Source: Candidatus Rokuibacteriota bacterium (GTDB lineage Bacteria; Methylomirabilota; Methylomirabilia; Rokubacteriales; CSP1-6). Taken from it: a DNA stretch of 64,000 bases. Positions within the stretch are counted from its first letter, which is position 1, and each line of letters starts with the position of its first letter. Shown piece after piece: positions 16,403 to 53,059 of the stretch. The position numbers and the translations under genes are program-made. The stretch spans positions 1 to 64,000 of the forward strand of contig VGLJ01000009.1 of assembly GCA_016866775.1 (NCBI GenBank), written 5' to 3'. The notes under the pieces were generated by a model. The model saw nothing but the letters and a program-made list of their open reading frames with translations. It was not told the origin of the DNA and searched no databases.

Positions 16403-17743
16403 ATGAACGAGACACGGACGCTCGCGCGGTTCGTGGCGGAGACGACGTTCGGCGGTCTGCCGCGCGGGCTCGTCGAGAACTGCAAGATCGCCGTGCTCGA
16501 CACCCTCGGCGCCGGATTCGTCGGCGCCGTGCAACCGTGGGCGCAGCGCATCGTCACGGTCGTCCGGTCGCTCGGCGGCACGCCGGAGGCATCCGTCATC
16601 CATCAGGACTGGCGGACGGACGTGTCGCGTGCCGCGCTCGCGAACGGCGTGCTCATCGGCGCGTTCGAGTGCGAGCCGCTCACCGGCTCGCACGCCAGCG
16701 GCACCGTGCTGCCGGCCGCGCTCGCCGTCTGTCAGCGCGAGCGATTCGACGGCGCGTCGTTCCTCACCGCGCTGGCGCTCGGCTTCGAAGTGTCGGCGCG
16801 GATCGCGCGCACCGCCGTCGGCCTCGAAACGGTTCGCGGCTTCCACAACCCGGGCACGCAGGGACCGTTCGGCGCGGCCGCCGCGGTCGGCAAGCTGTAC
16901 GCGTTCGACCAGGATCGGCTGACCAGCGCGATGGGCATCGCGGGCTCGTCGAGCGCGGGTCTCCTGGAGTTCGCGTGGAGCGGCGGCGACACCAAGCGCC
17001 TGCATCTCGGCCGCGCGAGCCAGCTCGGGCTCGAGAGCGCGCTGCTGGCGCGCAACGGCGTGCGCGGGCCGGCGACCGTGCTCGAAGGCCGCTCCGGCTA
17101 CTTCAACGCGTTCTCGACGCCGCCGCGCATGGAGAAGCTCGTCGAGAGGCTGGGCGCCGACTGGGCGATCGAGCCTCCGTCGCTCAAGTCATACGCCACG
17201 CACGTCACGCAGCAGGCCGTGGTCGCGGCGATCCAGGATCTCAAGCGCGAGCATCCGCTCGATCCCGCGAGGATCACGCGCGTGCTGATCCGCGGCGCGC
17301 CGCGGATCATGGAGGAGCGGCACATGGAGCGCGCGCCGCACGACGTCCTCGGCGGACAGTACAGCCTGCCGTTCACCACGGCGGTCGCGCTGACGCGCGA
17401 TCTCTCGAACCCGCTCGCGTACGACGAGGCCGCCGTGCACGATCCGCTCGTGCGGGACCTCGCGCGGCGCATCGAGCTCGAGCCGGTCGCGGACGATCAT
17501 GCGGACGCGCACCACTTCTGGCCGGCCGAGCTGCTCGTGGAGTGCGCGGGCGAGCGCCACACGCGGCGGACGCGTCCGCACAAGGGCGCGCCGTCCAATC
17601 CGTTCACCTGGGACGACGCCTGCGAGAAGTTCCGGCGCTACACCGCCTCGATCCTCGACCCGGCGCGGGCTTCAGCGCTCATCGAGGCCGTCAGCCGCCT
17701 GGAGAAGGTGGCCGACATGGCGGACGTCGCCGCGCTCGTCTAG
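16403..17743 (+). CDS. MmgE/PrpD family protein
   Basis: This 446-residue protein belongs to the family of 2-methylcitrate dehydratase (PrpD), immune-responsive gene 1/cis-aconitate decarboxylase and iminodisuccinate epimerase. Its all-helical domain starts at TRTLARFVAETTFGGLPRGLVENCKIAVLDTLGAGFVG. The substrate-site region ECEPLTGSHASGTVLPAALAV and FHNPGTQGPFGAAAAVGKLYAFD follow. The lid domain contains LKSYATHVTQQAVVAAIQDL and GGQYSLPFTTAVALTRD. It ends in a 4-base convergent overlap with the HpaB-like gene. It probably catalyses (de)hydration, decarboxylation or epimerisation of a small tricarboxylate-like acid. No propionate-cycle partners are adjacent. Confidence 0.87.
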   Translation: MNETRTLARFVAETTFGGLPRGLVENCKIAVLDTLGAGFVGAVQPWAQRIVTVVRSLGGTPEASVIHQDWRTDVSRAALANGVLIGAFECEPLTGSHASGTVLPAALAVCQRERFDGASFLTALALGFEVSARIARTAVGLETVRGFHNPGTQGPFGAAAAVGKLYAFDQDRLTSAMGIAGSSSAGLLEFAWSGGDTKRLHLGRASQLGLESALLARNGVRGPATVLEGRSGYFNAFSTPPRMEKLVERLGADWAIEPPSLKSYATHVTQQAVVAAIQDLKREHPLDPARITRVLIRGAPRIMEERHMERAPHDVLGGQYSLPFTTAVALTRDLSNPLAYDEAAVHDPLVRDLARRIELEPVADDHADAHHFWPAELLVECAGERHTRRTRPHKGAPSNPFTWDDACEKFRRYTASILDPARASALIEAVSRLEKVADMADVAALV

Positions 17744-19188
17744 TCCCGCCCCAGGAAGTCGCGGACGCGGTCGGCGGCCTCGCGCTTCGGGTAGAGCGCG
17801 TTCAGGATGCGGGCGCGCGTGAGCGGGTCGCTGGCGAAGAAGCGCTCGTAGAGCACCTGCCGGCTGCCGAACGCGCTCCCCGCCACGTCCCACGCGAGAC
17901 GGAACAGCTTCACGCGATCCCGCGCCGTGGCGGCGTCGGTGGCGAGGTACTGCTCGATGGCCGGCGCCAGCGGTCCGCGGAAGTCCGCTTCGCTCGGCGT
18001 GATCATGAAGCTGCTGGAGCCGAGGAGCTGCAGGATCTCGATCATCCGCGGGTACGCGGTCATGAAGAGGTTGCGCGAGCTCTCCACGGGAAGCTGCGCC
18101 GGACACATCACGCCCCACTCGTCGAGCGTCGCGTCGGCTTCCGACGCGCGCATGCACGCCCGGATCAGCTCGGTCTGGAGCATCAGCTCGCCGAGGCGCT
18201 CCTCGGCGTGCGGGAGCTGCGCGTTGCCGAGCGTCTCCGTCATCAGGAGCGCCACGCCCAGCACGAACTCGCACTTCGCGAGGTTCTTGGCCGCGCCCTG
18301 GTGCGCGGTGTGGACGTTCGAGTGCGTCTTGAGCCCGGTGCCGTTGACGAGGTCGACGTCTCCGAAGAGGAACACGCGCTCCCACGGTACGACCACGTCG
18401 TCGAAGAACACGACGCAGTCCATCTCCTCGAACCGCGAGCCGAGCGGGTGATCGAAGCGCGAGCGCTCGAGGTCGAAGCTCTCGCGGCAGAGGAACTGGA
18501 GCCCGGGCGTGCCGCACGGGATCGCGAAGTTGATCGCGAAGGGGCTCGCGCCCGGGGCCATCCGCCCGAGGCGCGGCGAGTACACGGCGATCTCGTCGGC
18601 GAGCGGCCCGAGCGTGGCGAGGATGCGCGCGCCGCGCACGACGAGCCCGGCGTCCGTCTCGCGGACGACGCGGAGGGCGGTCCCCTCCTCCAGCTTGAAC
18701 GTGCCCGCCGTGTCGCGGCTGCGCTGGAGGTTGATGAGCGCGTGCGTCAGCGTGAGGTCGTGCCGGGTGATGTGCTCGTGGTAGCGCCGGACGTTGTCGG
18801 CGAACTCCGGCCGCGCCTGCGCGAAGTAGGGCGCCGCGCCCGCCCAGGCGGCGAAGTTCACGTTCATGAAGTCCGGCGTGCGGCCCATCATCCCGCACGT
18901 CGCGCGCGCCCAGTGCAGCATCATCACGCGCCGGCGCTCGAGCTCCTCCCTCGTGCGCGGGATGATGAACGAGAGGCCTTCGCGCTCGCCGGTCGCGGGC
19001 GCGACGTACGTCATCTCGTCGCGCAGGGCGGGATCGTGCTGCATGTCGTAGAGGGCGGCGATCGTCCGCGCGCCGTTGCGGAGCCCGGGGTGTGTCGTGA
19101 CGTCCTTGACCCGTTCGCCGCCGAGCCAGACGTGGCGCTCCTGGCTCCGCAGCCCGTCGAGGTATTGCTGGCCCGTGCGTGCCGGCAT
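17740..19188 (-). CDS. 4-hydroxyphenylacetate 3-monooxygenase-family (HpaB-like) oxygenase
   Basis: The product is 482 residues with the normal length and layout of the FADH2-dependent HpaB/4-hydroxybutyryl-CoA dehydratase superfamily. It starts RTGQQYLDGLRSQERHVWLGGERVKDV and has HALINLQRSRD, GLVVRGARILATLGPLADEIAVY and MDCVVFFDDVVVPWERVFLFGDV. The absence of the Fe-S ligand cysteines of 4-hydroxybutyryl-CoA dehydratase favours a flavin monooxygenase or a related acyl-CoA-type oxidase. No flavin reductase (HpaC) is next to it. A small-domain PNPOx protein at 47395 is too far away to pair with confidence. The C-terminus overlaps the PrpD-like gene by four bases. Confidence 0.85.
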   Translation of the reverse strand: MPARTGQQYLDGLRSQERHVWLGGERVKDVTTHPGLRNGARTIAALYDMQHDPALRDEMTYVAPATGEREGLSFIIPRTREELERRRVMMLHWARATCGMMGRTPDFMNVNFAAWAGAAPYFAQARPEFADNVRRYHEHITRHDLTLTHALINLQRSRDTAGTFKLEEGTALRVVRETDAGLVVRGARILATLGPLADEIAVYSPRLGRMAPGASPFAINFAIPCGTPGLQFLCRESFDLERSRFDHPLGSRFEEMDCVVFFDDVVVPWERVFLFGDVDLVNGTGLKTHSNVHTAHQGAAKNLAKCEFVLGVALLMTETLGNAQLPHAEERLGELMLQTELIRACMRASEADATLDEWGVMCPAQLPVESSRNLFMTAYPRMIEILQLLGSSSFMITPSEADFRGPLAPAIEQYLATDAATARDRVKLFRLAWDVAGSAFGSRQVLYERFFASDPLTRARILNALYPKREAADRVRDFLGRD

Positions 19189-23029: not shown

Positions 23030-23821
23030 ATGGGCTGGCTCGACGGGCAGGTGGCGCTGGTGACGGGCGGCGGCTCGGGCATCGGACGCGCGATCGTGAC
23101 GCGCTTCATCCAGGAAGGCGCGCGCGTCGGCGTGATGGATCGCGTCGGCGCGCGGACCGAGAAGCTGCAGGCCGAGTACGGCAAGCTGGTCACGACGATC
23201 GGCGGCGACGTGGCGCGGCTCGACGACAACAAGCGAGCGGTGTCCACAACGGTGGACGCCTTCGGCCGGCTCGACATCTTCGTGGGCAACGCCGGCGTGT
23301 TCGACCGCGCGGTGCCCCTCGCCGACATTCCCGACGACCAGCTCTCCGCGGCGTGCGACGAGCTGTTCGCCGTCAACGTGAAGGGATGCCTCTTCGGCGC
23401 GAAGGCCGCGCTCCCCGAGCTTCAGAAGACCGGCGGCTGCATGATCTTCACCGCGTCCGTGGCGGGCATGAACTCGGGCGGAGGCGGCGCGATCTACACC
23501 GCGTCGAAGCACGCCGTCATCGGGCTGATCCGCCAGCTCGCCACCGAGCTTGCGCCCCGGGTCCGGGTGAACGGCGTCGCGCCCGGCGGCACGCGCACCG
23601 ACCTCAGAGGTCTGGCCGTGCTCGGCCAGGACGATCGGACGCACTTCGCCGATCCCGATGTCGAGGAGCGGCTGCGCGCGAACAATCCCTTGCATATGAT
23701 GCTCGAGCCGGACGATCTCGCGGGCGCGTACGTGTTCCTCGCGTCCCCGAGCGCGCGCGGCATGACCGGGACCGTCGTGACCGTGGATGCGGGCAGCATG
23801 CTGCGGATGCGCCGCCGCTGA
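23030..23821 (+). CDS. Short-chain dehydrogenase, probable cis-dihydrodiol dehydrogenase
   Basis: The product is 263 residues with cofactor motif TGGGSGIGR (12-20), NAG in VGNAGVF, catalytic Ser in FTASVAG and Y-x-x-x-K in YTASK. The overall pattern ([21 protein letters not shown], long loop before [20 protein letters not shown]) resembles the BphB/HcaB type. These oxidise cis-dihydrodiols, made by Rieske dioxygenases, to catechols. The alpha subunit of such a dioxygenase starts 13 bases downstream, which supports that call. It has a strong GAGGAGG ribosome site. Confidence 0.85.
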
Positions 23822-23834
23822 GGGAGGGTCGCTC

Positions 23835-25109
23835 ATGGCAACCGATGTCAGCCGGCTGGTCGACGCCGAGAACGGCCGCATCAGCCGCCGCATCTTCATC
23901 GAGCAGGAGATCTACGAGCAGGAGCTCGAGCGGATCTTCGCCCGGTGCTGGCTCTTCCTCTGCCACGAGTGCCAGATCCCGCGGCCCGGAGATTTCTTCA
24001 CCACCTACATGGGCGAGGACCCGGTCCTCGTCGTGCGCGACGGCAACGGACAGGTCGGCGCGTTCCTGAACGTCTGCCGGCACCGCGGCAATCGCCTGTG
24101 CCGCGCCGAGGCGGGCAACGCCGCGAGCTTCACGTGCGCCTATCACGGGTGGACGTACCGCAACGACGGGCGGCTGGTCGGCGTGCCGTTCATCAAGGAG
24201 GCGTACCACAACGCGCTCGAGCGCGAGCGCTGGGGTCTCATCCCCGTCGCGCAGGTCGAGAGCTACAAGGGCCTCGTGTTCGCGACGTTCGATGCCGAGG
24301 CACCGCCGCTGCGCGAATACCTCGGCGAGATGGCGTGGTACCTCGACGCGTTCTTCGACCGCCGCGAAGGCGGCATCGAAGTCGTCGGCGGGCTGCACAA
24401 GTGGATCATGCCGTGCAACTGGAAGCTGCCCGCCGAGAACTTCGCGGGCGACGGCTATCACGTCACCTGGAGTCACGTCTCGGCGATTCGCGCGGGGTTC
24501 GGCGGTGACTTTCGCGTCGGCGCCGATCCGACGGGCGTAGCGCTCTCGCCGGGCAACGGCCACTGCGTGATGACCGTCGGCGCGAACATGAACGCTGACC
24601 CGCCGGCGCCCGAGATCCAGGCGTACGAGGAGAAGATCTTCCCCGAGATCGTGCAACGTCTCGGACCGCGCGCGGGCACCCTCAAGCCCGTCGCGGGCAC
24701 GGTGTTTCCGAACTTCTCCATGCTCAAACCGACGTCGCGCACGTTCCGCGTCTGGCATCCCCGCGGTCCCGAGAAGACCGAAGTGTGGGCGTGGGTCTAC
24801 GTGGACAAGGCGGCGCCGCCCGAGGTGAAGGAAGCCAACCGGCTCGCGGGCGTGCGCGTCTTCGGTCCCGCCGGCGTGTTCGAGCAGGACGACATGGACA
24901 ACTGGCAGGCGTGCACGCAGACCGGCCGCGGCGTCGTCGCGCGCAGGCATCCGCTGAACTACGAGATGGGGCTCGGACACGACCGCTGGAACGACGATCT
25001 CAAGGCCGTGGCCAGCGACTACCGCTTCAGCGAGAGCAACCACCGCCAGTTCTACCAGCGCTGGGCGCAGCTCATGGCCGCCGAGAAGTGGTCGGAGCTC
25101 AAGAGCTGA
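23835..25109 (+). CDS. Aromatic ring-hydroxylating dioxygenase, alpha subunit (Rieske oxygenase)
   Basis: The product is 424 residues. The Rieske [2Fe-2S] ligands are C81-x-H83 ([10 protein letters not shown]) and C101-x2-H104 (CAYHGW). The catalytic domain contains [14 protein letters not shown], with the bridging D206 and iron ligands H209 and H214. The third ligand (Asp) is in the FEQDDMDNW segment at 349-357. The length is typical of group II/III oxygenases such as biphenyl or benzoate types. The start has GGGAGGG 6-7 bases upstream. The beta subunit follows with a TGATG overlap. Ferredoxin and reductase genes are not adjacent, so electrons must come from elsewhere. Confidence 0.93.
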
Positions 25110-25645
25110 TGGCCGACGACCTTCTCCGCGACGTCGAGCAGTTCTTCTACCGCGAAGCGCGACTGCTGGACGAGCGGCGCTTCCACGAGTGGCTCGAGCT
25201 CTTCACCGACGACGTGCGGTACTGGATGGCGGGCCGCCGGACGCGCTATCCACAGTCGAGCAAGGCCATCACGGTCCTTGCCGGCACCCGCCGCGACGAC
25301 GGCGACATCGAGGACGAGCTGCCACTCCTCGACGAGACCAAGACGACGCTCATCGGGCGCGTCGCGCGCATCGACACGGGCATGGCGTGGGGCGAGGATC
25401 CGCCGTCGCGCACGCGCCACATCATCACCAACGTCGAGGTCGAGCCCGGCGCCACCGCCTCCGAGCTGACGGTGTACTCGAACTTCCTCGTCTACCGGAC
25501 GCGCGCGGAGACCGAGCAGGACCTGTACGTCGGCGCGCGGCAGGACGTCCTTCGATCGGTCGACGGTGCGTGGAAGATCGCCGGCCGCAAGCTCATCCTC
25601 GACCAGAACGTGCTCTTGCCGAAGAACGTGAGCGTCTTTTTTTGA
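25109..25645 (+). CDS. Aromatic ring-hydroxylating dioxygenase, beta subunit
   Basis: This 178-residue NTF2-fold small subunit of a Rieske dioxygenase (BphE/HcaF-like) shows VEQFFYREARLLDERRFHEWLELFTDDVRYWM at the start, RVARIDTGMAWGEDPPSRTRHIITNVEV in the middle, and DVLRSVDGAWKIAGRKLILDQNVLLPKN near the end. It is structural, holding the alpha3beta3 hexamer. The start overlaps the alpha-subunit stop (TGATG). The coding end runs through seven T residues into the stop, and this T-run also contains the TTG start of the next gene. Confidence 0.93.
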   Translation: MADDLLRDVEQFFYREARLLDERRFHEWLELFTDDVRYWMAGRRTRYPQSSKAITVLAGTRRDDGDIEDELPLLDETKTTLIGRVARIDTGMAWGEDPPSRTRHIITNVEVEPGATASELTVYSNFLVYRTRAETEQDLYVGARQDVLRSVDGAWKIAGRKLILDQNVLLPKNVSVFF

Positions 25646-26112
25646 GCGACTGGAGCAAGGTCGCCCGGCCGATTCCCGTCCCGAACGAGTGGACGAAGCC
25701 GTTCTGGGACTCGGCGAAGCAGGGCGTCTTGTCGCTGCAGCGCTGCCAGGCGTGCCGGCGCTTCCAGCACCCGCCCTACCCGACGTGCGTGAACTGCATG
25801 GCGATCGATCTCGCGTTCGAGCCCGTCAGCGGCAAGGGCGCGATCTACACGTACACGATCATGTATCACGCGGGTGACAAGCGGTTCGCCGCCGCGGTGC
25901 CGTACGCGAGCATCATCGTCGAGCTGGACGACGCGCCCGGCGCGCTCATGGCCGCGAATCTCCTCGACGCGCCCTACACCGAGGCGAAGGTGGGGCGGCG
26001 CGTGGAAGTCACCTTCGAGCGGCTGAACGACGACATCACGCTGCCGCAGTTCCGGCTGGAGGGGTTTGGGGTCCGCCAGTCGCGGGGCGCCATGTCCGAG
26101 GAGTCGGCGTGA
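25642..26112 (+). CDS. DUF35/OB-fold zinc-ribbon acyl-CoA-binding protein
   Basis: The product is 156 residues. An N-terminal helix (PNEWTKPFWDSAKQGVLSLQRC) leads into a rubredoxin-like zinc ribbon with C35, C38, C49 and C52, followed by an OB-fold (GKGAIYTYTIMYHAGDKRF, VELDDAPGALMAANLL, VGRRVEVTFERL). Such ChsH2-like proteins are obligate partners of thiolase-fold proteins; in steroid catabolism the DUF35-Ltp2 complex is an aldolase. The start appears to be TTG at 25642, overlapping the beta-subunit stop. No other in-frame start gives the complete helix. The end overlaps the thiolase-like gene by four bases, so the pair is probably co-translated. Confidence 0.85.
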   Translation: MSDWSKVARPIPVPNEWTKPFWDSAKQGVLSLQRCQACRRFQHPPYPTCVNCMAIDLAFEPVSGKGAIYTYTIMYHAGDKRFAAAVPYASIIVELDDAPGALMAANLLDAPYTEAKVGRRVEVTFERLNDDITLPQFRLEGFGVRQSRGAMSEESA

Positions 26113-27296
26113 TGTGGGCGCATCGCTGCGAGGTCGCGGTGAGCGGCGTGGGCTTCTCGAAAGTCACGCGCTCGGCGGAGATTCCCCTCGCCGCGCACGC
26201 GCTCGAAGCCGTGAAGGCCGCGGTCGAAGACTCCGGGCTGTCGATGTCGGACGTCGACGGGCTCGCGACGTATCCGGAGCTGCCCGCGACGGGCCACGCG
26301 GTCATCGACGGCGTCACCATCGTGTCCGTGAACTGCATGATGGCGATGCTCAAGCTGCCGAACCTGAGCTGGCACATCCAGGTCGAGACCGTGAACATCG
26401 GCGGCGCCTTCCAGCAAGCCGTGAACGCGCTGCTCGCCGGCGTCTGCAAGTACGCCGTGGTCTGGCGCGCCATGCATAATCCGAAAGGCACGTACCAGAA
26501 CCTGCCGGGCACGTACGCGCAAGGACCGGCGCAGTTCACCGCGCCGTACGGCTTCGGCGGTCCCGGGCAAGGCATGGCCGTCGCGTACACGCGCTGGCTC
26601 GAAACGCACGGGCAGAGCCGCGAGAAAATGGCCACGCTCGCCGTCACCCAGCGCCGGCACTGCCACATGAACCCGCACGCGTACTTCCACAAGCAGCCGC
26701 TCACGCGCGAGGACTATCTCAGCTCGCGCATGGTGGCGTATCCCTTCTGCCTCTACGACTGCGACATCCCCGTGCAGGGCGCCGTCGCCGTCGTGCTGAC
26801 GACCGCCGAGCGCGCGCGCGATCTGAAGCCGCGCCCCGCGTACCTCGCGGGCTACGGGCAGCGCCTCAAGTTCGAGGTCACGGGACGCATCGGCAGCCTG
26901 AGCAGCTACATGGACGGCGGCCGCAGCTCGTCGAGCCTCACGTGGGAGCGCTCGGGCTTCGCGCCGAAGGACGTGGACGTGGCGCAGATCTACGACGGCT
27001 TCTCCGCGTCCGTGATCTACGGCCTCGAGTCCTACGGCTTCTGCAAGGAAGGCGAAGCGCTCGACTTCATCCAGAACGGGCGCATCGAGCTCGACGGCGA
27101 GCTGCCGCTGAACACGTTCGGGGGCAGCCTCAGCACCGGGCGAATCCACGGGCTCTGGCACATCATCGAGGGCGCGCTGCAGGCGTCGGGACGCGCGGGC
27201 GAGCGCCAGGTGAAGGACGTGAACGTCTCGTTCGTCGGCGCGAGCGCACCGATCGTGACGGGCACCACCTTTATCTTCGTCCGCGAGCCGTACTGA
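26109..27296 (+). CDS. Thiolase-fold protein lacking the thiolase catalytic residues (SCP2/Ltp2-like)
   Basis: The product is 395 residues with an overall SCP2-thiolase layout. The position of the nucleophilic cysteine reads VNIGG (residues 95-99), with no Cys. The NEAF-like segment is QIYDGFSA with Y295. The region that normally carries the GHP histidine reads GGSLSTGRIHG (338-348), and the C-terminal Cys motif reads FVGASAP. It therefore cannot catalyse a normal Claisen condensation or thiolysis. Ltp2-type retro-aldolases show the same kind of loss and pair with a DUF35 protein, as this gene does through a 4-base overlap. A carbon-carbon lyase or aldolase role on an acyl-CoA is the best inference. 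Confidence 0.85.
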   Translation: MMWAHRCEVAVSGVGFSKVTRSAEIPLAAHALEAVKAAVEDSGLSMSDVDGLATYPELPATGHAVIDGVTIVSVNCMMAMLKLPNLSWHIQVETVNIGGAFQQAVNALLAGVCKYAVVWRAMHNPKGTYQNLPGTYAQGPAQFTAPYGFGGPGQGMAVAYTRWLETHGQSREKMATLAVTQRRHCHMNPHAYFHKQPLTREDYLSSRMVAYPFCLYDCDIPVQGAVAVVLTTAERARDLKPRPAYLAGYGQRLKFEVTGRIGSLSSYMDGGRSSSSLTWERSGFAPKDVDVAQIYDGFSASVIYGLESYGFCKEGEALDFIQNGRIELDGELPLNTFGGSLSTGRIHGLWHIIEGALQASGRAGERQVKDVNVSFVGASAPIVTGTTFIFVREPY

Positions 27297-28979: not shown

Positions 28980-30071
28980 CTAGCGCTTGACGCCGAGCAA
29001 CCTCGCGGCCGTCTCGCCGAGCATGGCCCGGCGCTCCGCGTTGCTGAAGCCCGGCGTCTTCAGGATGTGATCGACGGCCTTGTCCTGCCAGGGAATCGGA
29101 TGGTCGGTGCCGATGACGAGCCGGTTCACGCCGACTTCCGCCGCGAGGTGGCGCAGCGCCTCGGGCGTGAAGACCAGCGTGTCGTAATACATCTGCTTCA
29201 GATACTCCGTCGGCTTCTTCTTCAGCTTCACGCCGGTGTCCATGTCCGGCGCCACGCGCAGGCTGTTGTCGGAGCGCGCCGCGTACGACGGCAGGAACCC
29301 GCCGCCGTGCGCCGAGCAGATCTTGAGGCCGGGGAAGCGGTCCAGCGTGCCCTCGAAGATCAGGTGCGAGAGCGCGATGGTGGTGTCGAGCGGATTGCCG
29401 ATCGTGTTCTCGAGCCACCCCTGCCCCTGCAGCCGCCGCTTGAGATCCGGCGTGCTCTGCGGGTGGATGAAGATGAGGACACCGAGCTCCTCGGCCTTCG
29501 CCCAGAACGGATGGAACTTCGGATGGGAGAACTCGTCGCCGGCGACGCTCGCGCCGACGGCGGCGCCGCGCAGCCCGAGCGTCTTCACGCCGTCCACGAG
29601 CTCCTGCACGGCGAGGTCGGGGAACTGCAGCGCGACCGACGCGAAGGCGACGAAGCGGTCCGGATACGCCGCGCAGAACTCGGCGAGCCGCTCGTTCTGG
29701 ATCTTGATGACCTGCGTGACGACGTCGCGCTCGGCCCGGTACCACCGCGGGTTGATGCTGAGCGCTTCCATGTCGATGCCCTGCTTGTCCATCTCGGCGA
29801 TGCGCCGCGGGCCGACTTCCTCGATGCCGGGCCCGCGATGATCGGAGGGGTCCAGCCCCAGCAGCGCGTACGCCTCGGGGATCAGGCAGTGCGCGTGCAC
29901 GTCGATCGTCCTCGCGCGCTTGCCGCCGACGACGACCTCGCGCCGGCGCCCGACGACCGACAGCTTCGCGCCACGCCCGGCGGGCTTCGACCGCGCCTTG
30001 CCTCGCGCACGCGCGGCGGCGATGAGGTCGCACTCGGTGAAGGCGATGGCGGCGTTGGTCGCGCTCTTCAT
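28980..30071 (-). CDS. Amidohydrolase family 2 (ACMSD-like) metal-dependent hydrolase
   Basis: This 363-residue TIM-barrel protein has TIDVHAHCLIPEA, where HAH is the HxH metal motif. It continues with VLIFIHPQST, where a His ligand is expected, KICSAHGGGFLPSYAARSDN, and LVIGTDHPIPWQ with the catalytic Asp. The N-terminus has a basic, non-hydrophobic extension of about 50 residues with several Lys/Arg clusters, so the true start could be further in. The gene sits one base after the CoA-transferase stop and upstream of the sulfatase-like gene. It may decarboxylate or hydrolyse an acid fed by the CoA-transferase system, which is an inference from position only. Confidence 0.85.
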   Translation of the reverse strand: MKSATNAAIAFTECDLIAAARARGKARSKPAGRGAKLSVVGRRREVVVGGKRARTIDVHAHCLIPEAYALLGLDPSDHRGPGIEEVGPRRIAEMDKQGIDMEALSINPRWYRAERDVVTQVIKIQNERLAEFCAAYPDRFVAFASVALQFPDLAVQELVDGVKTLGLRGAAVGASVAGDEFSHPKFHPFWAKAEELGVLIFIHPQSTPDLKRRLQGQGWLENTIGNPLDTTIALSHLIFEGTLDRFPGLKICSAHGGGFLPSYAARSDNSLRVAPDMDTGVKLKKKPTEYLKQMYYDTLVFTPEALRHLAAEVGVNRLVIGTDHPIPWQDKAVDHILKTPGFSNAERRAMLGETAARLLGVKR

Positions 30072-30072
30072 C

Positions 30073-32634
30073 TCAGATGACTCCCTCGTCGGTCAGGGTT
30101 TTGATCTCGGCGGAGGACATCCCGAGCAATTCGCCGTAGACGTAGTCGTTGTCCTCGCCGTAGCACGGCGCGCCGCGGTCGATGCGGCCGCCGATGTACG
30201 CGGGGCTCGCGCTCAGCTTGATCGGCACCTCGGCGATGGGCCAGCGGCCGATCTTCGTGCCCGTCACCTCGGTCAGCCACTCGAGCGCGGCGAGCTGCGG
30301 ATCGCGGTCGCAGCGGTCGCCCGCCGTCTGACAGACGCCGGCCGGCACGCCGGCGCGCTGCAGCGCCATCATCGTCTCGTACCCGTCGCGCGATGTCGTC
30401 CAGCCCGCCACGAGCGCGTCGAGCGCGTCGTGGTGCTTCAGGCGGCCCGCGAGATCCTTGAACCGGACGTCGCTCGCCCACTCCGGATGTCCCGCGACCT
30501 GCGCCAGCGCGCGCCACTCGGCGTCGGTGAAGCAGGCGATCGCGATCCATCGATCCACGCCGAGCGACGGATACGCGCCGTGCGGCGCCGCCGGCTTGTG
30601 CGGCGAGCGGTTGCCGTAGCGCGACCAGATGCGCCCGTTCGCCGACCAGTCGAGGATCGCGGTGCCGCTGATGAGCAGCCCGACTTCCGCCTGCGACGCG
30701 TCCACCCACTGCCCTTCGCCCGTGCGCTCGCGATGGAACAGCGCCGTCAGCATGGCGAGCGCGAAGCTGTACGCGCCCATCCAGTCGAGATACGAGTAGC
30801 CCCACCCCGCCGGCGGCGCGGGCTCGGGAAGTCCCGACATCTCCGACAGGCCGGAGAACGAGTTCGCGACGGGACCGACGGTGCGGAAGCGCCCGTACGT
30901 GCCCTGCGCGCCCATGCCCGACTGCTGGACGTAGATGATGTCGGGCTTGATCGCGCGCATCGCGTCGTAGCCGAGGCCCCAGCTGTCGAGCACGCCCGGC
31001 GAGAAGCCTTCCGCGACGATGTCGGACATCGCGACGAGGCGGCGCGCGATCTCGAGCCCCTTCGGATGCCGCACGTTGAGCGAGACCCCGCGCTTGCCCG
31101 GGTTCTTGTTGTTGAACTGCCCGCCCATGTCGGGATCGGTGACACCCTGGAGCGGCCCCGTGGCCGCGTCGCGCGCGGCGCGTCCGCCGATCGGTGCCAT
31201 CGCCGCCATGCGCGTGTCCGGATGACTCTTGAGCTCGACCTTGATGCTTTCCGCGCCGAACGCGGCGAGGAATCGCGTGCCGCCGGCCGAGGCGAGGAAC
31301 CACGTGAAGTCGAGGATGCGGATGCCGTGCAGCGGGAACGGCTTGCCGCGCGGCGAGAGCGGCTCGCCGGCCGGCGGACGCGCGTCCGGCGCGGCGACCG
31401 GAAGCTCGCGCGTCCGTTCGGGCGTGACGGTCGCCGCGTCCTCATCGAGCAGCGGCGCGCGTCGGCCGACCGTCCACGCCGTGCGCGTCGCCAGCCACTT
31501 GCTCGTCGCGTAGCGGAACGCGCGGCCCAGCTCCGGATGCTCGATGTCCGTGCAGCTCTTCCGCACGAGCCAGTGCTCGTCCATCGCGTTCTCGTGCGGC
31601 TTGCGGAGCGGCGCCCAGAGCATCCCGGCTTCCTGCGCCTCGCGCCACGGCACGTGCTCGTAGGTGAACGCGCGCACGAAGCGCTGCACCGCTTCCATCG
31701 CGTGGTCGCGCTTCGCCACGCTCGGGCCCGTGCCGGGAACGAACCGGCCGCTGGTCGGGAGCGTCGACTTCTCGGCGTCGAGACCGGCCTCGATGCCGTA
31801 CTTCTCGAGCAGCGCGACGAGCGCCTTGGTCTCGCCCGGCCGCGTGCCGAGGTTCGCCATCACCCAGCGCCCGTCCTTCGTGTGCACGATCGACGGATGC
31901 GGCGTCACGCCCTCGCGCGCGTGCCGGCTCGTCTGCCGCATCACGAGCGCGCGCCGCATCACCCACGTCATCAGGTCGACCTCGGTGGATTTCGCGACGG
32001 CCTCGTGGATCGCGCACGACACCTTCTGCCCCTGGCCCGTCCGCCAGCGGTAGAGCAGTGCGGCGACGATGGAGAACGCGAGCTGCTCGCCGGCGATGTG
32101 GAACGCGTGCCACATCTGCGGCGCGATCGGCGGCAGGTCGTACTGGCCGCCGGGCGCCGGATCGTAGCCGCAATTCATCATCACGCCGCCGAGCGCCAGG
32201 TGAATCAGGTCCGAGCCCTTGAAGTCGGCCCACGGCCCGTGATCACCGAACGGCGAGACGCGTGCGACGATCAGCGCGGGCGTCTGCCGCATGAGCGCGT
32301 CCGCGCTCAACCCCAGACGATCCAGCTCCCCGCGTGGCGTGGACTCCAGAAGGATGTCGGCGCTGGCGACGAGCGCCCGGAATCGCTCGCGGTCGCGCTC
32401 CTGATGCAGATCGAGCACGAGCGAGCGCTTGCCGCGGTTGTACTGCCAGAAGAACAGCGAGCGCTCGGGATCCTCGCGGTCTTCGTAGAAGGGGCCGAGG
32501 CGCCGCGTGGGGTTCCCGCCGGGCGGCTCGATCTTGATGACGTCGGCGCCGAGCCCCGCGAGCGTCAGCCCGCAGTATTCCGCCTGCTCGTCGGCCAGCT
32601 CGATGACGCGGATGCCGGTCAGCGGACCCTTCAT
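30073..32634 (-). CDS. Fused tandem CaiB/BaiF (family III) CoA-transferase
   Basis: The product is 853 residues with two complete family III CoA-transferase units. The first covers about 1-400 (starts LTGIRVIELADEQAEYCGLTLAGLGADVIKIEPPGG) and the second about 433-853 (starts LHGIRILDFTWFLASAGGTRFLAAFGAESIKVE). The acyl-anhydride-forming Asp aligns with D617 in SYLDWMGAY in the second unit. The equivalent place in the first unit is F178 (MWHAFHIAG), so only one half looks catalytic. The ATG at 32634 follows a GGAGAG ribosome site. It transfers CoA between carboxylic acids; the substrate is unknown. It is divergent from a peptide-type binding protein and precedes an amidohydrolase. Confidence 0.87.
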   Translation of the reverse strand: MKGPLTGIRVIELADEQAEYCGLTLAGLGADVIKIEPPGGNPTRRLGPFYEDREDPERSLFFWQYNRGKRSLVLDLHQERDRERFRALVASADILLESTPRGELDRLGLSADALMRQTPALIVARVSPFGDHGPWADFKGSDLIHLALGGVMMNCGYDPAPGGQYDLPPIAPQMWHAFHIAGEQLAFSIVAALLYRWRTGQGQKVSCAIHEAVAKSTEVDLMTWVMRRALVMRQTSRHAREGVTPHPSIVHTKDGRWVMANLGTRPGETKALVALLEKYGIEAGLDAEKSTLPTSGRFVPGTGPSVAKRDHAMEAVQRFVRAFTYEHVPWREAQEAGMLWAPLRKPHENAMDEHWLVRKSCTDIEHPELGRAFRYATSKWLATRTAWTVGRRAPLLDEDAATVTPERTRELPVAAPDARPPAGEPLSPRGKPFPLHGIRILDFTWFLASAGGTRFLAAFGAESIKVELKSHPDTRMAAMAPIGGRAARDAATGPLQGVTDPDMGGQFNNKNPGKRGVSLNVRHPKGLEIARRLVAMSDIVAEGFSPGVLDSWGLGYDAMRAIKPDIIYVQQSGMGAQGTYGRFRTVGPVANSFSGLSEMSGLPEPAPPAGWGYSYLDWMGAYSFALAMLTALFHRERTGEGQWVDASQAEVGLLISGTAILDWSANGRIWSRYGNRSPHKPAAPHGAYPSLGVDRWIAIACFTDAEWRALAQVAGHPEWASDVRFKDLAGRLKHHDALDALVAGWTTSRDGYETMMALQRAGVPAGVCQTAGDRCDRDPQLAALEWLTEVTGTKIGRWPIAEVPIKLSASPAYIGGRIDRGAPCYGEDNDYVYGELLGMSSAEIKTLTDEGVI

Positions 32635-32690
32635 GGGACTCTCCACACCGGGGATTCTATGCGACTCACGTTCGTGCCACGATAGCGCCG

Positions 32691-41737: not shown

Positions 41738-44050
41738 CTATCGAGAATCGCCTGCCGCTCGGATCAGCGCCGACAGGCGGTCGGGTGAGAGCGGCAGCGC
41801 GGTGATCGAGACGCCGAGCGGCGCCAGCGCGTCGGCGACGGCATTCGCGACCGCGGCGCCGCACCCGGAGCTGCCGCCCTCGCCCGCGCCCTTGACGCCG
41901 AGCGGGTTGAGCGGCGTCGGCGTCTCCTCGAGGATCCGGACCTCCGTCGACTCCGGCATCTCCATCACCGTGGGCACCAGATACTCCATGAACGTGGTGG
42001 TGAGCAGCTGGCCCTGCTCGTCATACACGAGCTCCTCCAGCAGCGCGCCGCCGATGCCCTGCGCGAGCGCGCCCACGAGCTGGCCTTCGACGATCATCGG
42101 ATTGATCGCCTTACCGATGTCGTAGGCGATCGCGTACTTGAGGATCTTCACGGTCCCCGTCGCGACGTCGACCTCGACGACCGCGGCGTGGCATCCGTAC
42201 GGATACGTCATCATCGGCGCTTCGAAGAAGTGCGCGGCGTAGAGCCCCGGCTCCATGTCCGGAGGCCCGGGCACCGCCGCGCGCGCCAGCTCGCGGAACG
42301 TCACCCTGCGGTCCGGCACGCCGCGCACGTGCACCGCGCCGTCGTCGAGCACGAGATCGTCGGCGGCCGCCTCGAGCAGCGTGGACGCGACACGGAAGAT
42401 CTTCGCGCGCACCTTGCGCGCGGCTTCGAGCGCGGCCGGCAGCGCGACCGAAGCGCCGCGGCTCGCGAAGCCGCCGACGCCGAACGGCACGCGCGCGCTG
42501 TCGCCGTGCACCACGGTGATCTTCTCCGGCGAGACGTTCAGCTCGTCGGCGCACACCTGCGCGAGCGTCGTCTCGATCCCCTGCCCCACCGACGCCACGC
42601 CGGAGTAGACGACGACGTGGCCCGTCGCATCGATCTCGACGCGCGCGTACTCCCACGGGCCGAGCCCGGCCTTCTCGACGAGAAAGCCGACGCCGATCCC
42701 GATGGAGCGGCCCTGGCGTCGCGCCTCCGCCTGCTCGCGCCGCGCGGACTCGTAGTCGAGCGCGGCGAGCGCCTTGTCGAGCGCCGACGCGTAGTCGCCG
42801 CAGTCGTACACCGTGCGCTGGGCCAGGGCGCCGCCGCCGACGTCGTACGGCATCTCGTCGGGCGTGATGAAGTTGCGGCGCCTGAGCTCGAGCGGATCGA
42901 CGCCGAGCTTCCGGGCGGCGATGTCCATCAGCCGCTCGCGCACGAACGTGCCCTCGTAGCGGCCGGGTCCGCGATACGTCCCCGTGGGCGTCTTGTTGGT
43001 GAGCACGCACCGCGCCTCGGCCGTGTAGTGAGGAATCCGGTACGGTCCCGGCAGCAACGCCGCGGTGAGCTCGGGCACGACGACGCCGTGCGTGCGGATG
43101 TATCCACCGAGGTCCACCATGAAATGGTCCACGAGCGCCACGATCCGGCCGTCGCGATCGAAGCCGATCTCGACGTCGTGGTACTGCTGCCGCGAGTGGT
43201 TGGCCGCCATCAGGTGCTCGCGGCGGTCCTCGATCCACTGCACCGGCCGGCCGAGCCGCTTCGCGCTCCACGGCACCAGGAAGTCTTCCGGGTAGAACTC
43301 GCCGCGCACGCCGAAGCCGCCGCCGACCTCGAGCTCGGTGAACTGGATCAGGTGCTCGGGGTGGCCGAGGAGATCGGCGAGCACGCGACGATTGAAGTGC
43401 GGGATCTTCGCCACGCCCCACAGGCGGAGCATCCCGGTGCCCGCATCGAACGCCGCCGTCAACCCGCGTGTCTCCATCGGGATACCGGTGTGCCGCTGGA
43501 CGGCGAGGCGCTCGCGCACGCGGACGTGCGCGGCGGCCATCGCGGCGGTCGCATCGCCCTTGCGCGTGTGGAGCGTGGTCGCCACGTTGCCGCCGACGGC
43601 GTCGTGGAGCACGGGCGTGCCAGCCTCCACCGAGCGCCGCGCGTCGGCGACGGCCGGCAGCGGCTCGTAGTCGACTTCCATCACGTCCAGCGCGTCCTCG
43701 GCGAGGTAGCGGCTCTCGGCGACGACGAACGCCACGGGCTCGCCGACGTAGCGAACCTTCTCGCTCGCGAGCGGCCGCTGCAGGCAGACGACGTTGCCGG
43801 CCTGGTGGCCGAGTCGCGTCGGGATGCGGCCGACGTCGCCGAGGTCGTCGAAGGTCACGACGGCGACGACGCCGGGAAGCGCGAGCGCGGCCTTCGAGCG
43901 GATCTCGCCGAGGCGCGCGTGCGCGTGCGGCGATCGCAGCACCGCGCCGTGCAGCAGCCCGGGCAGCCGGAAGTCGGCGGCGTATTTTCCACGGCCGGTG
44001 AGCAGCCGCCGGTCTTCGAGGCGTCGCACGCTTCGTCCGATCGCCGGCAT
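41738..44050 (-). CDS. Xanthine dehydrogenase-family molybdopterin-binding subunit (CoxL-like, form II type)
   Basis: This is the large catalytic subunit of a molybdenum hydroxylase (770 residues). It starts GRSVRRLEDRRLLTGRGKYAADF. It has VGGGFGVRGEFYPED for cofactor binding, TYRGPGRYEGTFVRERLMD in place of the form I CO-dehydrogenase loop, GVASVGQGIETTLAQVCADELNV, and the catalytic Glu in KGAGEGGSSGCG near the end. It lacks the VAYRCSFR loop, so oxidation of an aldehyde or N-heterocycle is more likely than CO. The ATG at 44050 is five bases from the 2Fe-2S subunit stop. A remnant of a homologue lies at 37743-37818. Confidence 0.92.
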   Translation of the reverse strand: MPAIGRSVRRLEDRRLLTGRGKYAADFRLPGLLHGAVLRSPHAHARLGEIRSKAALALPGVVAVVTFDDLGDVGRIPTRLGHQAGNVVCLQRPLASEKVRYVGEPVAFVVAESRYLAEDALDVMEVDYEPLPAVADARRSVEAGTPVLHDAVGGNVATTLHTRKGDATAAMAAAHVRVRERLAVQRHTGIPMETRGLTAAFDAGTGMLRLWGVAKIPHFNRRVLADLLGHPEHLIQFTELEVGGGFGVRGEFYPEDFLVPWSAKRLGRPVQWIEDRREHLMAANHSRQQYHDVEIGFDRDGRIVALVDHFMVDLGGYIRTHGVVVPELTAALLPGPYRIPHYTAEARCVLTNKTPTGTYRGPGRYEGTFVRERLMDIAARKLGVDPLELRRRNFITPDEMPYDVGGGALAQRTVYDCGDYASALDKALAALDYESARREQAEARRQGRSIGIGVGFLVEKAGLGPWEYARVEIDATGHVVVYSGVASVGQGIETTLAQVCADELNVSPEKITVVHGDSARVPFGVGGFASRGASVALPAALEAARKVRAKIFRVASTLLEAAADDLVLDDGAVHVRGVPDRRVTFRELARAAVPGPPDMEPGLYAAHFFEAPMMTYPYGCHAAVVEVDVATGTVKILKYAIAYDIGKAINPMIVEGQLVGALAQGIGGALLEELVYDEQGQLLTTTFMEYLVPTVMEMPESTEVRILEETPTPLNPLGVKGAGEGGSSGCGAAVANAVADALAPLGVSITALPLSPDRLSALIRAAGDSR

Positions 44051-44055
44051 GACCG

Positions 44056-44541
44056 TCAGGGTCTCGCCGAGGCGGCGCGCGACCGCGCGGCGGTGAGCGC
44101 CGCCGTCACGATGTTGCGATAGCCCGTGCAGCGGCACAGGTTGCCGGAGATCGCCTCGCGGACCTGCGCGTCCGACGGGTTCGGGCACTCGCGCAGCAGG
44201 CACGTCAACGTCATCAGGAAGCCCGGCGTGCAGAAGCCGCACTGCAGGCCGTGATGTTCGCGAAACGCCTCCTGCAAAGGATCGAGGGTCTCGCCGTTCG
44301 CCAGGCCCTCCACCGTCTCGATCTCGTGGCCGTCCATCTGTGCCGCGAACAGGAGACACGAGCGCACGGCGGCGCCGTCGACGATGACGGTGCACGCGCC
44401 GCATACGCCGTGCTCGCAGCCGAGGTGGGTGCCCGTGAGATCGAGGTCGTCGCGCAGGAAGTCGGCCAGCGTCTTGCGCACCTCGACGGTTTTCTCGACA
44501 CGACGCCCGTTGACCGTGACGCGGACCGTGCGCTCGATCAT
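44056..44541 (-). CDS. 2Fe-2S subunit of the molybdenum hydroxylase (CoxS-like)
   Basis: The product is 161 residues with the plant-type cluster (C42, C47, C50, C62 in [12 protein letters not shown]...SCLLF) and the helical-domain cluster (C101, C104, C136, C138 in QCGFCTPG...GNLCRCTGY). It carries electrons from the molybdenum centre to FAD. The 5' end overlaps the FAD subunit by four bases. The gene order FAD, 2Fe-2S, Mo (M-S-L) is the usual one, so the three subunits form one enzyme. Length and motifs are normal. Confidence 0.93.
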
Positions 44542-45437
44542 CGCCGGTCGCTCTTCGCGCGCTCCGCGCCGGCCGCGGCGCGCTCGGCCGCCCGTGCGAG
44601 CGCACGCGCGCTCAGCACGCGAGCGAGCTGCGCGCGGTATTCGCTCGACGCATGCAGATCGCCATCCGGTCGAAGGCCCGCGACGACACGGCGGCCCACC
44701 TCCTCGAACGCGGCGGGCGTCGGCCTGGCGCCGACCAGCGTGCGGACCGCGTCGCGCGCGACGACCGGCGTCGGCCCCACACCGGTCAGCGCGAGCGCGC
44801 CGGCCGTGCAGACACCCGCCTCGTCGACCGTCACGGTCGCCGCGACGCCGACCAGCGCGAAGTCGCCGTGGCGGCGGCTCACTTCGAGAAAGGCAACGCC
44901 CGTGCGCGGCGGCGTGACCGGAACGCGCACTTCCACGAGCAGCTCGTCGGGCTCGGCCGCGGTGGTCAGATACGCCACGAAGTAGCGGTCAGGCGTCAGC
45001 ACGCGCTCGCCGCGCGCCGATCGCAGCACGAGCTCGCCATCGAGCGCCGCGACCACCGCCGGGAGCTCCGCGGCCGGATCGGCGTGCGCGAGACTGCCGC
45101 CGATCGTCCCGCGGTTGCGGATCTGCACGTGACCGATCTGCGGCATCGCCTCGGCGAGGAGCGGACAGCGCTCGCGCACGAGCGCGGAGGTCTCGACGGC
45201 GCGCTGACGCGTCATCGCGCCGATCGTGAGATGGCCATCGTCGACACGGATGCCGGCGAGGCCGGCGACGTCGTTCAAGTCCAGCAGGTGCGCCGGCCGC
45301 ACCAGGCGGAAATTGAGCAGCGGCACGAGGCTCTGGCCGCCGGCCAGCACCTTCGCGTCCTCGCCGTGCTGCGCCAGGACCCCGAGCGCCTCGTCGAGGG
45401 ACCGCGGAATCAGGTAGTCGAAGCGTGGCGGCTTCAT
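44538..45437 (-). CDS. FAD-binding subunit of the molybdenum hydroxylase (CoxM-like)
   Basis: This 299-residue FAD_binding_5/CO_deh_flav_C protein shows FDYLIPRSLDEALGVLAQHGEDAKVLAGGQSLVPLLNFRL for FAD pyrophosphate binding and NRGTIGGSLAHADPAAELPAVVAALDGELVL for the second contact. The C-terminal domain has RRHGDFALVGVAATV and LTGVGPTPV. It passes electrons to an external acceptor. It is the first gene of the trio, divergent from the BNR-repeat gene with a 52-base gap that contains TATACT for the opposite direction. Confidence 0.93.
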   Translation of the reverse strand: MKPPRFDYLIPRSLDEALGVLAQHGEDAKVLAGGQSLVPLLNFRLVRPAHLLDLNDVAGLAGIRVDDGHLTIGAMTRQRAVETSALVRERCPLLAEAMPQIGHVQIRNRGTIGGSLAHADPAAELPAVVAALDGELVLRSARGERVLTPDRYFVAYLTTAAEPDELLVEVRVPVTPPRTGVAFLEVSRRHGDFALVGVAATVTVDEAGVCTAGALALTGVGPTPVVARDAVRTLVGARPTPAAFEEVGRRVVAGLRPDGDLHASSEYRAQLARVLSARALARAAERAAAGAERAKSDRR

Positions 45438-50928: not shown

Positions 50929-52344
50929 ATGACCGCGTATCACTTCTCGGGTATCGCGGGCCAGGGCACGAACCCGCTCGCGCGTCTGATGCGCGCGTGG
51001 GGCCACAGCGTGCAGGGCTCCGATCGCGCCTTCGATCAGGGCAAGCAGCGCGAGCTCGCGGCGACGCTCGCCACGCTCGGCATTCGCCTCCTGCCGCAGG
51101 ATGGCACCGCGATCGGTGCCGGCCTCGAGCGGTTCGTCTACTCGACCGCCGTCGAGGCGGAGACGCCCGAGGTACGGGCGGCGCGCACGCTCGGCATCGA
51201 GCGCGTGCCGCGGCCCGCGCTGCTCGCCGAGGTCGTCAACGGCGGCAATCCGGGCGTCGCGGTCGCGGGGACGAGCGGCAAGAGCACGGTGACCGGGATG
51301 ATCGGCTGGATGCTCCGTGACGCGGGCGTGCCGGCGACCGTCCTCGGCGGCGCCGCGCTCGTCGGCGAAGGCGTGATCGGCTGCTTCGCCGCCGGTCCAC
51401 ACGACGGTCCGGTCGTCGCCGAAGCGTGCGAGTCCGACGGCACGCTGGTCGGCTATCACCCCGGCATCGGCCTCATCCTCAACGTGAGCCGCGACCACGC
51501 GGAGATGGAGTCGCTCCGCGAGCAGTTCACGACGTTCGCCAAGCAATCGCGCACGCTGTGGGTGAACGCGGCGAGCGCGGAGGCGCGCGCGATCGGCGCG
51601 GCCGTCGACGCGCGCACGTTCGGCGTGGCCGACGACGCGGACGCGCGGCTGGTCGTGGAGAGCGCGGGGCCGGATCGCGCGCGCGGCACGCTGGTGGCCG
51701 ACGGTGCGCGCATCGCGCTCGACATTCCGCAGCCGGGACGGCACAACCTCGAGAATGCCGCGGCCGCGGCCGCGGTCGCGCACACGCTGGGCGTCGCGCC
51801 GGCAGCCATCGCGCGCGCGCTGGCCACGTTCCCCGGCGTCGCGCGCCGCTTCGACGTCGTCGGCACGACCGCGCGCGGTATCCGCGTGGTGGACGACTAC
51901 GCGCACAACGCGGACAAGATCCGCGCCGCCGTCACCACCGCGCAGGCGGCGGCCCGCGTCGTCGCCGTCTTCCAGCCGCACGGCTTCGGGCCGGCGCGCT
52001 TTCTGCGTCCGGAGCTCGCCGCGCTGCTGCCGCGGCTGCTGCGGCCGGACGACCGGTGGTGCTACGCGGAGATCTTCTACGCGGGCGGCACGGTGGCGAA
52101 GGACCTCTCGAGCCGCGAGCTCGCGGCCGATCTGCCCTCGGCGCTGCGCGCGGGCTACGCGAAGGACCACGCGGCGGTCGTCGACTGGGTGACGCGCGAA
52201 GCGAAGCCCGGCGACACCGTGCTGATCATGGGCGCGCGCGACCCCGACCTCCCCGCCCTCGCCCGCGCCGCCTTCGCCGCGCTCGATTCGCTATACTCCG
52301 GCATCGTCACCGCCGGAGGGAGCCATGCCCACGATCGAGCGTAA
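50929..52344 (+). CDS. mpl: Mur ligase family protein, Mpl (UDP-MurNAc:tripeptide ligase) type
   Basis: The product is 471 residues. The N-terminal UDP-binding Rossmann domain has FSGIAGQGTNPLARLMRAWGHSVQGSD. The ATP-binding domain has AVAGTSGKSTVTGMIGWML (P-loop 114-120) and NVSRDHAEM. The C-terminal ligase domain has FPGVARRFDVVGTTARGIRVVDDYAHNADKI and ILIMGARDP-like VLIMGARDPDL. The start and domain order match MurC/Mpl. Mpl joins UDP-MurNAc to the recycled tripeptide. I favour Mpl over MurC because no cell-division/mur cluster is present, but this is not decisive. The ribosome site is GGGGAGAG. The 3' end overlaps the next gene by 20 bases. Confidence 0.75.
   Translation: MTAYHFSGIAGQGTNPLARLMRAWGHSVQGSDRAFDQGKQRELAATLATLGIRLLPQDGTAIGAGLERFVYSTAVEAETPEVRAARTLGIERVPRPALLAEVVNGGNPGVAVAGTSGKSTVTGMIGWMLRDAGVPATVLGGAALVGEGVIGCFAAGPHDGPVVAEACESDGTLVGYHPGIGLILNVSRDHAEMESLREQFTTFAKQSRTLWVNAASAEARAIGAAVDARTFGVADDADARLVVESAGPDRARGTLVADGARIALDIPQPGRHNLENAAAAAAVAHTLGVAPAAIARALATFPGVARRFDVVGTTARGIRVVDDYAHNADKIRAAVTTAQAAARVVAVFQPHGFGPARFLRPELAALLPRLLRPDDRWCYAEIFYAGGTVAKDLSSRELAADLPSALRAGYAKDHAAVVDWVTREAKPGDTVLIMGARDPDLPALARAAFAALDSLYSGIVTAGGSHAHDRA
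52292..52297 (+). promoter_or_regulatory. Candidate -10 box (TATACT) inside the end of the Mur ligase gene
   Basis: TATACT lies 27 bases before the ATG at 52325, giving a leader of about 20 bases with GGAGGGAG as ribosome site. It is inside the upstream coding region. No clear -35 is seen. Confidence 0.3.
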
Positions 52345-53059
52345 CGGCGCCGCCATCTACTACGAGGAGTTCGGCCAGGGCTTTCCGATCCTGACGTTCG
52401 CCCCGGCGGGGCTGCAATCCACCATCGCGGTGTGGAGCCAGCCGTCGGCGCCCATCAACCCGACGACGGAGTTCGCGTCGAGCTTCCGCGTGATCGCGAT
52501 GGATCAGCGGAACGCCGGCGGCAAGTCGCGCGCGCCGATCAGCGCGCAGGACGGCTGGCACAGCTACCTCGGTGACCACCTCGCGGTGCTCGACCATCTG
52601 AAGATCGAGCGCTGCCACCTGTACGGCCAGTGCATCGGCGGCTCGTTCATCATGAGCATGCTGAAAGCCGCGCCCCGGCGCGTCGCATCGGCGGTCCTCG
52701 CGCAGCCGATCGGCCGCGTCGCCCCCGCGCTGCCCCCGCGTCCGCCGCGCTTCGAGGGGTGGGCCAAGACGCTGACCGACCACCCCGAAGTGAACGAGGC
52801 GGTGCTGGACTCGTTCTACAAGAACCTCTACGCGCCGGGCTTCGTCTACAGCGCCGACCGCGCGGTGGCGGGGGCGTGCACGACGCCGTGCCTGGTGATG
52901 GCCGGCAACGACGAGGCGCACCCGTATCCGATTTCGGAGGAGCTGGCGAAGATCCTGCCAACGGCCGAGTTCATTCAGGAGTGGAAGACGGGAGCCGCGC
53001 TCGACTCCGCGCGCGTGCGCGTCAAGGAGTTCCTGACGAAGCACACGCCGCGCGCGTAG
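52325..53059 (+). CDS. Alpha/beta hydrolase-fold protein with a cysteine at the nucleophile position
   Basis: The product is 244 residues with alpha/beta hydrolase order: YYEEFGQGFPILTFAPAGLQS, VIAMDQRNAGGKSRAP, and nucleophile elbow LYGQCIGGSF with C103 where most have Ser. A late strand is CLVMAGNDEAHPYP with a candidate acid. The usual C-terminal His loop reads QEWKTGAALDSARVRV and holds no obvious His. Dienelactone hydrolase also uses Cys but keeps its His. It may have altered catalysis or be non-catalytic. The ribosome site GGAGGGAG precedes the ATG, and the gene overlaps the Mur ligase end. Confidence 0.83.
   Translation: MPTIERNGAAIYYEEFGQGFPILTFAPAGLQSTIAVWSQPSAPINPTTEFASSFRVIAMDQRNAGGKSRAPISAQDGWHSYLGDHLAVLDHLKIERCHLYGQCIGGSFIMSMLKAAPRRVASAVLAQPIGRVAPALPPRPPRFEGWAKTLTDHPEVNEAVLDSFYKNLYAPGFVYSADRAVAGACTTPCLVMAGNDEAHPYPISEELAKILPTAEFIQEWKTGAALDSARVRVKEFLTKHTPRA

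Follow-up and report, generated by a model that had tools for sequence, protein, structure and literature searches.

A cysteine-free thiolase-fold protein with an arginine-type active site, its DUF35 partner and a co-occurring fused CoA-transferase: a candidate carbon-carbon lyase system

We describe here a pair of overlapping genes in the first 64,000 nucleotides of contig VGLJ01000009.1 of Candidatus Rokuibacteriota bacterium (assembly GCA_016866775.1); this whole stretch is referred to as the window. The pair encodes a thiolase-fold protein (THL) and a partner of the DUF35 family. THL has lost the nucleophile and the histidines of thiolases, keeps the base tyrosine of the Ltp2/Sal-type aldolases, and belongs to an active-site class in which an arginine occupies the place of the Ltp2 acid. 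Across several phyla the pair co-occurs with a fused double type III CoA-transferase, CaiB2. We give about an even chance to the reading that THL and its DUF35 partner are a cysteine-independent C-C lyase, most likely a retro-aldolase, which would act on a CoA ester made by CaiB2.

Active site and phylogenetic position

The frame at 26109-27296 (plus strand) is open, and the sites VNIGG, GGSLSTGRIHG and FVGASAP read exactly as the original prediction had quoted them. Translation of THL likely starts at the ATG at 26112, because orthologues begin M-W-x-x-R-C, with the GTG at 26109 as the alternative start codon; residues are counted from Met26112. The proposed overlap with a zinc-ribbon DUF35 gene (25642-26112) is borne out, the TGA of the latter occupying 26110-26112, and the start of the DUF35 gene in turn overlaps the stop of a Rieske beta gene. 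Pfam domains assigned are Thiolase_C_1 for THL (113.9 bits) and, for the neighbouring protein, zf-ChsH2 and OB_ChsH2_C, both of the ChsH2 type; THL is thus encoded together with a DUF35 protein that has both a zinc ribbon and an OB fold, as expected of Ltp2/Sal-type aldolases. Its zinc ligands C35, C38, C49 and C52, which are of the C4 type, are invariant in 13 homologues. The nearest solved relative of both genes is the TcLtp2-ChsH2(DUF35) complex (PDB 6ok1; 5e-65 for THL, 2e-16 for DUF35). A physical complex is supported by plasmid loci of Streptomyces and Rhodococcus (L141:4473-6158 and L143:4497-6152), as there DUF35 and a thiolase-fold protein of the same active-site class are fused in a single reading frame.

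In TcLtp2, Tyr294 of the YDHF motif acts as the base, the His of this motif forms the oxyanion hole and Tyr344 is the acid; the catalytic residues of CtSal are Tyr302 and Cys304 (PMC12329534). When aligned to TcLtp2, THL has the same Tyr294, with Gly296 in place of His296 and Arg344 in place of Tyr344. The earlier claim that all catalytic residues are lost therefore applies to the thiolase residues only: VNIGG occupies the nucleophile site of canonical and SCP2-type thiolases, and YDGF and GRI-HG stand where thiolases have their catalytic histidines (HDxF or NEAF, and GHP), but the aldolase base of the YDxF/Y motif, Tyr294, is kept. It is invariant in 25 homologues, together with Asp295, Gly296, Phe297, Gly343, Arg344, His346, Gly347, Asp216, Cys217 and Asp218, and these positions hold down to Chloroflexota relatives at 45% identity. 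All 65 family members with YDGF carry [YF]DCDIP, and 63 of the 65 carry TGRIHG; judged by this near-invariance and by the presence in Chloroflexota, the features are not a product of chance. The nucleophile position itself varies within the class (NIGG, CPD, QLGG), arguing that a cysteine is not needed there.

A comparison that took in paralogues from the window's genome, homologues on plasmids and PDB sequences, the last represented by their aligned parts rather than by full chains, shows three main classes. The first, true thiolases, has HDxF and GHP, mostly with a Cys-Ala nucleophile motif, and includes four paralogues of the window's genome. The second, the Tyr-type proteins without the cysteine, has YDxF and a Tyr before x-HG, and comprises TcLtp2, two own-genome paralogues and others. 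The third is the class of the window, here called the GR class, with YDGF, GR-x-HG and DCD-x-P, to which proteins of Massilia, Sphingomonas, Mycobacterium intracellulare, Streptomyces and Rhodococcus also belong. In the tree, the GR class and a divergent RHA1 protein form a 100/99 clade that lies on the side of Ltp2 and not with the thiolases encoded by the same genome; the class shares a supported clade (100/99) with Ltp2 and appears to group with it and with IpfD, separate from true thiolases and from Sal. By the approximately unbiased (AU) test, a placement with CtSal is rejected (p 0.005), one with true thiolases weakly rejected (p 0.033) and one with Ltp2 not rejected (p 0.31), these p values being lenient because the groups were chosen in the light of a first tree. 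The phylogeny thus tends to agree with the kinship originally suggested: THL appears to fall with Cys-less thiolase-fold/DUF35 proteins, among them the retro-aldolase TcLtp2 and IpfD, a genetically supported retro-aldolase component. On a plasmid of Mycolicibacterium madagascariense (L148:8096-13168), in a run of amidohydrolase, CaiB2 (57%), thiolase-fold protein and DUF35, the thiolase-fold protein has IQDPTSV in place of YDxF, so that even the base Tyr is lost.

Distribution and the CoA-transferase partner

One scan of genome contigs recovered 78 loci from the best 80 of 106 hits. Within this set, 72 loci, from about 70 genomes of Rokubacteria, Betaproteobacteria and Alphaproteobacteria, are at 80-93% identity, and the remaining six, all from Chloroflexota, at 43-45%, with a gap between. 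DUF35 lies upstream of THL wherever a locus has room, in a few loci at a separation of up to ~2.5 kb. Presence is patchy, THL being carried by only 3 of 60 genomes around the window's own (G000, G007 and G028). The combination of high identity and patchy presence suggests that the pair has spread horizontally with a conserved substrate, and its occurrence at this identity in several phyla likewise points to a common one.

No gene other than CaiB2 is found repeatedly next to the pair with similar conservation; CaiB2 lies within ~8 kb at 22 loci (64-85% identity). Where it is not adjacent, it is found elsewhere in the genome in 43 of 45 further THL genomes, some of these matches being contig-end fragments. 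In the betaproteobacterial family of G091, a CaiB2 orthologue is present in 19/19 genomes with THL versus 2/55 without (Fisher 1e-15, or 1e-8 with only genomes of at least 4 Mb, shared ancestry being ignored); in the set of 60 genomes surrounding that of the window, an orthologue at 84% or more is present in 3/3 versus 0/57. Two separate CoA-transferase (CaiB) genes directly precede DUF35-THL in the Chloroflexota relatives, and neighbours of this sort also accompany more distant pairs carried by plasmids of Variovorax and Rhodococcus. Benzylsuccinate CoA-transferase (9fn0) has two chains, to which the halves of CaiB2 correspond; CaiB2 has the CoA_transf_3 fold, and its halves are dissimilar. 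An Asp in an S-D motif, which we take to be catalytic by analogy with formyl-CoA transferase, is found in the N half only, in 52/52 sequences of an alignment assembled without filtering on this motif; the chains of 9fn0 have the same pattern. CaiB2 does not reach the NCBIfam equivalog cut-offs of related transferases. DddD may offer a precedent for fused CoA-transferases.

The window's genome (G000) holds 58 matches to CaiB2, one of which (C52, 39%) is another fused double protein. At L078:6583-12923, the pair has CaiB2 beside it, and after CaiB2 come a further DUF35/thiolase-fold pair, this one of the Tyr-type, and an additional CoA-transferase; the locus looks as though one pathway comprised two cleavage steps of this sort.

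Among the other neighbours (Table 1), the alpha/beta-hydrolase is present in 17/19 THL-carrying versus 5/55 THL-lacking genomes of the G091 family, and also in several THL-lacking genomes close to that of the window. In ~10 genomes (L113-L124), the hydrolase that adjoins CaiB2 is of a different alpha/beta type, replacing the betaproteobacterial one. A Pfam tally over 131 neighbours gave CoA_transf_3 eight times, Amidohydro_2 eight times and Abhydrolase_1 six times, with nothing else recurring strongly. The amidohydrolase next to CaiB2 was rejected as a partner: a close relative was found at L040 only (62%), and other nearby amidohydrolases are not orthologous. Neighbouring Rieske, short-chain dehydrogenase/reductase (SDR), luciferase-like monooxygenase (LLM), thioesterase and HpaB genes were likewise discarded, as they are not conserved across loci. 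Several oxidative systems mark the window as a catabolic region; an HpaB-like flavin hydroxylase (17740-19188) and a three-gene molybdenum hydroxylase set (41738-45437) were read from the sequence.

Table 1. Features of the window discussed in the text
Feature	Position	Strand	Remarks
THL, thiolase-fold protein	26112..27296	+	394 aa; YDGF / GRIHG / LYDCDIP class; without nucleophilic Cys, without GHP
DUF35 / ChsH2-type partner, zinc ribbon + OB-fold	25642..26112	+	TTG start; overlaps THL start
CaiB2, fused double type III CoA-transferase	30073..32646	-	Halves resemble two benzylsuccinate CoA-transferase chains (9fn0)
Amidohydrolase-2 protein, ACMSD/gamma-resorcylate decarboxylase-like	28980..30071	-	Directly downstream of CaiB2
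Alpha/beta-hydrolase	52325..53059	+	71% identical to hydrolase adjoining pair or CaiB2 in 14 beta/Roku loci
SDR, candidate cis-dihydrodiol dehydrogenase	23030..23821	+	Adjoins Rieske alpha/beta in two other genomes
Rieske dioxygenase alpha (RHOa), HcaE/BphA type	23835..25109	+	Adjacency to pair not conserved
Rieske dioxygenase beta	25109..25645	+	Elsewhere adjoins alpha, not pair

Proposed reaction and alternatives

What kind of step could such a system catalyse? In the scenario we favour, CaiB2 would transfer CoA from a donor, succinyl-CoA by analogy, to a carboxylic acid, and THL-DUF35 would act on a beta-hydroxyacyl-CoA in a pocket shaped by the DUF35 domain. Tyr294 of YDGF would abstract the beta-hydroxyl proton, the C(alpha)-C(beta) bond would break to release an aldehyde or ketone, and the thioester enolate would be protonated and leave as acyl-CoA. 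As Arg344 takes the place of the acid Tyr344, this reprotonation would need a donor other than that of Ltp2, which could be found in the set of Arg344, Asp218, Cys217 and His346 or in a bound water; alternatively, Arg344 and Asp218 may together serve as a binding site for the enolate oxyanion or for a second carboxylate. From the relatives of CaiB2, our guess for the substrate would be substituted succinates or other hydroxy-dicarboxylates. Rather tentatively, this could amount to a widespread two-enzyme pathway that moves horizontally: an acid abundant in soil would first be activated by a fused CoA-transferase of the BbsEF-like kind and then undergo retro-aldol cleavage by the arginine-type lyase (YDGF/GR/DCD). 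The proton donor of the lyase would be unlike those of Ltp2 and Sal, and the CoA donor might be handed back to the transferase.

Several observations weigh against the favoured scenario. Arg344 and Gly296 stand where an acid would be sought, so that the established acid-base pairs are incomplete, both Tyr344 of Ltp2 and Cys304 of the Sal YDC motif being absent. The AlphaFold2 model of THL, built with 25 mostly close homologues, is poor (pLDDT 51). No hydratase or dehydrogenase is consistently adjacent to the pair across loci, and no GR-class protein with a characterised function was found in the open-licence literature. As to CaiB2, the Fisher values take no account of shared ancestry within the family, and its relatives also adjoin Tyr-type proteins (P. 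caribensis, Rhodococcus, L078), so that it does not define the substrate of the lyase.

Among the alternatives, the one that survives best, though we consider it unlikely, is a Cys-independent acyl transfer, a hydrolytic 1,3-diketone cleavage or a condensation, PhlC-like or retro-Claisen, in place of retro-aldol chemistry. In its favour, Arg344 is without precedent among the aldolases compared; however, PhlC and BbsB are more distant from THL in sequence, BbsB and other thiolases retain HDxF and GHP, and the tree appears to put the GR class with Ltp2.

The Rieske genes of the window bring up a further alternative. In ibuprofen degradation, a retro-aldolase splits the product of a dioxygenase into propionyl-CoA and isobutylcatechol (PMC9195938, PMC6063337). 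By this model, the Rieske enzyme would ipso-hydroxylate an aryl-acyl-CoA, from which THL-DUF35 would split off acyl-CoA, leaving a catechol. SDR, Rieske alpha, Rieske beta, DUF35 and THL do form one closely packed run in the window, the same component set deacylates in ipfABDEF of pIBU218 (PMC9195938, PMC6063337), and IpfD is likewise Cys-less with YDxF. We nevertheless hold this route to be improbable. No recovered locus except the window has Rieske genes beside the pair. Four of 39 other pair-carrying genomes encode a Rieske alpha at 67-75% identity, in each case away from the pair, accompanied by beta and in two also by the SDR, with no DUF35 or THL beside them. The arrangement is therefore local. 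Identities to the ibuprofen proteins are low (27.5% for IpfA/RHOa, 31% for IpfD/THL), an alpha subunit of the HcaE/BphA type with an SDR companion suggests an ordinary cis-dihydrodiol route, and no CoA ligase lies beside the Rieske genes of the window. The Rieske neighbour noted in the original prediction is thus real here but not conserved elsewhere, and it is not supported as the functional partner on which an aromatic substrate had been proposed, since each is found without the other and the consistent partner is the fused CoA-transferase. Aromatic acyl side-chain cleavage is possible for the window's genome and not supported for the family; the substrate should not be read from the local Rieske neighbour.

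Finally, THL could be a catalytically inactive binding or scaffold protein of a lipid-transfer-like kind, in line with the annotation of relatives as lipid-transfer proteins and with its missing thiolase residues, but this appears the least probable, given the constant pairing with DUF35 and the invariance of Tyr294, Arg344, Asp218 and His346 across phyla at 45% identity, which, with 80-93% identity over whole proteins, argues for a constrained active site.

A C-C lyase acting after CaiB2 thus remains our preferred reading. The GR class defines a thiolase-superfamily active-site class for which we found no characterised member and in which a single arginine may play a part; the CoA-transferase and the hydrolase that go with it provide a strong genomic lead to a catabolic step.

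Comparison with known systems

The fold, the partnership with DUF35, Cys-less aldolases and an IpfABDE-like architecture are already known; in the open-licence literature we found no description of an active site of the arginine type or of its link with a fused CoA-transferase, nor anything that joins CoA-transferase, thiolase and Rokubacteria. The lyase proposed in the original prediction is partly supported, but it is not new as a type, since acyl removal by Rieske, thiolase-fold and DUF35 components is known from ipfABDEF (PMC9195938, PMC6063337).

With Ltp2-ChsH2 (6ok1), the pair shares the thiolase fold, a DUF35 protein with a C4 zinc ribbon, the absence of a nucleophilic Cys, the base Tyr of YDxF and x-x-HG at the GHP site. 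It differs in having Gly for His296, Arg for the acid Tyr344 and DCD for DCC; moreover, DUF35 is stand-alone here, whereas it is the C-terminal domain of a hydratase subunit there, and no steroid gene set lies near the THL pair. IpfD-IpfE of ipfABDEF resembles it in that the genes for a thiolase-fold protein and a DUF35 protein that stands alone are in line with those for both Rieske subunits, and IpfD in being Cys-less, with YDxF and a proposed retro-aldol removal of acyl-CoA. However, IpfD is only 31% identical, has a Tyr where THL has Arg344 and lacks the x-HG His, the Rieske subunits are 27-30% identical and not orthologous, and activation is by the ligase IpfF. The bile-acid aldolase Sal-Shy (9myr) also unites a thiolase fold with DUF35 and has its base Tyr in YDxx, but it relies on Cys304 (YDCY) and has a zinc finger of the Cys3His1 type where the THL pair has YDGF and C4, and the two are apart in the tree (the AU placement with Sal being the one most firmly rejected). 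The benzoylsuccinyl-CoA thiolase BbsAB with the benzylsuccinate CoA-transferase BbsEF shares with the THL pair and CaiB2 the association of DUF35 and thiolase-fold proteins with a two-part type III CoA-transferase that carries the Asp in one half only. BbsB, however, retains both HDAF and GHP; oxidation genes of the bss/bbs kind were not seen in the window, and hosts and neighbours differ.
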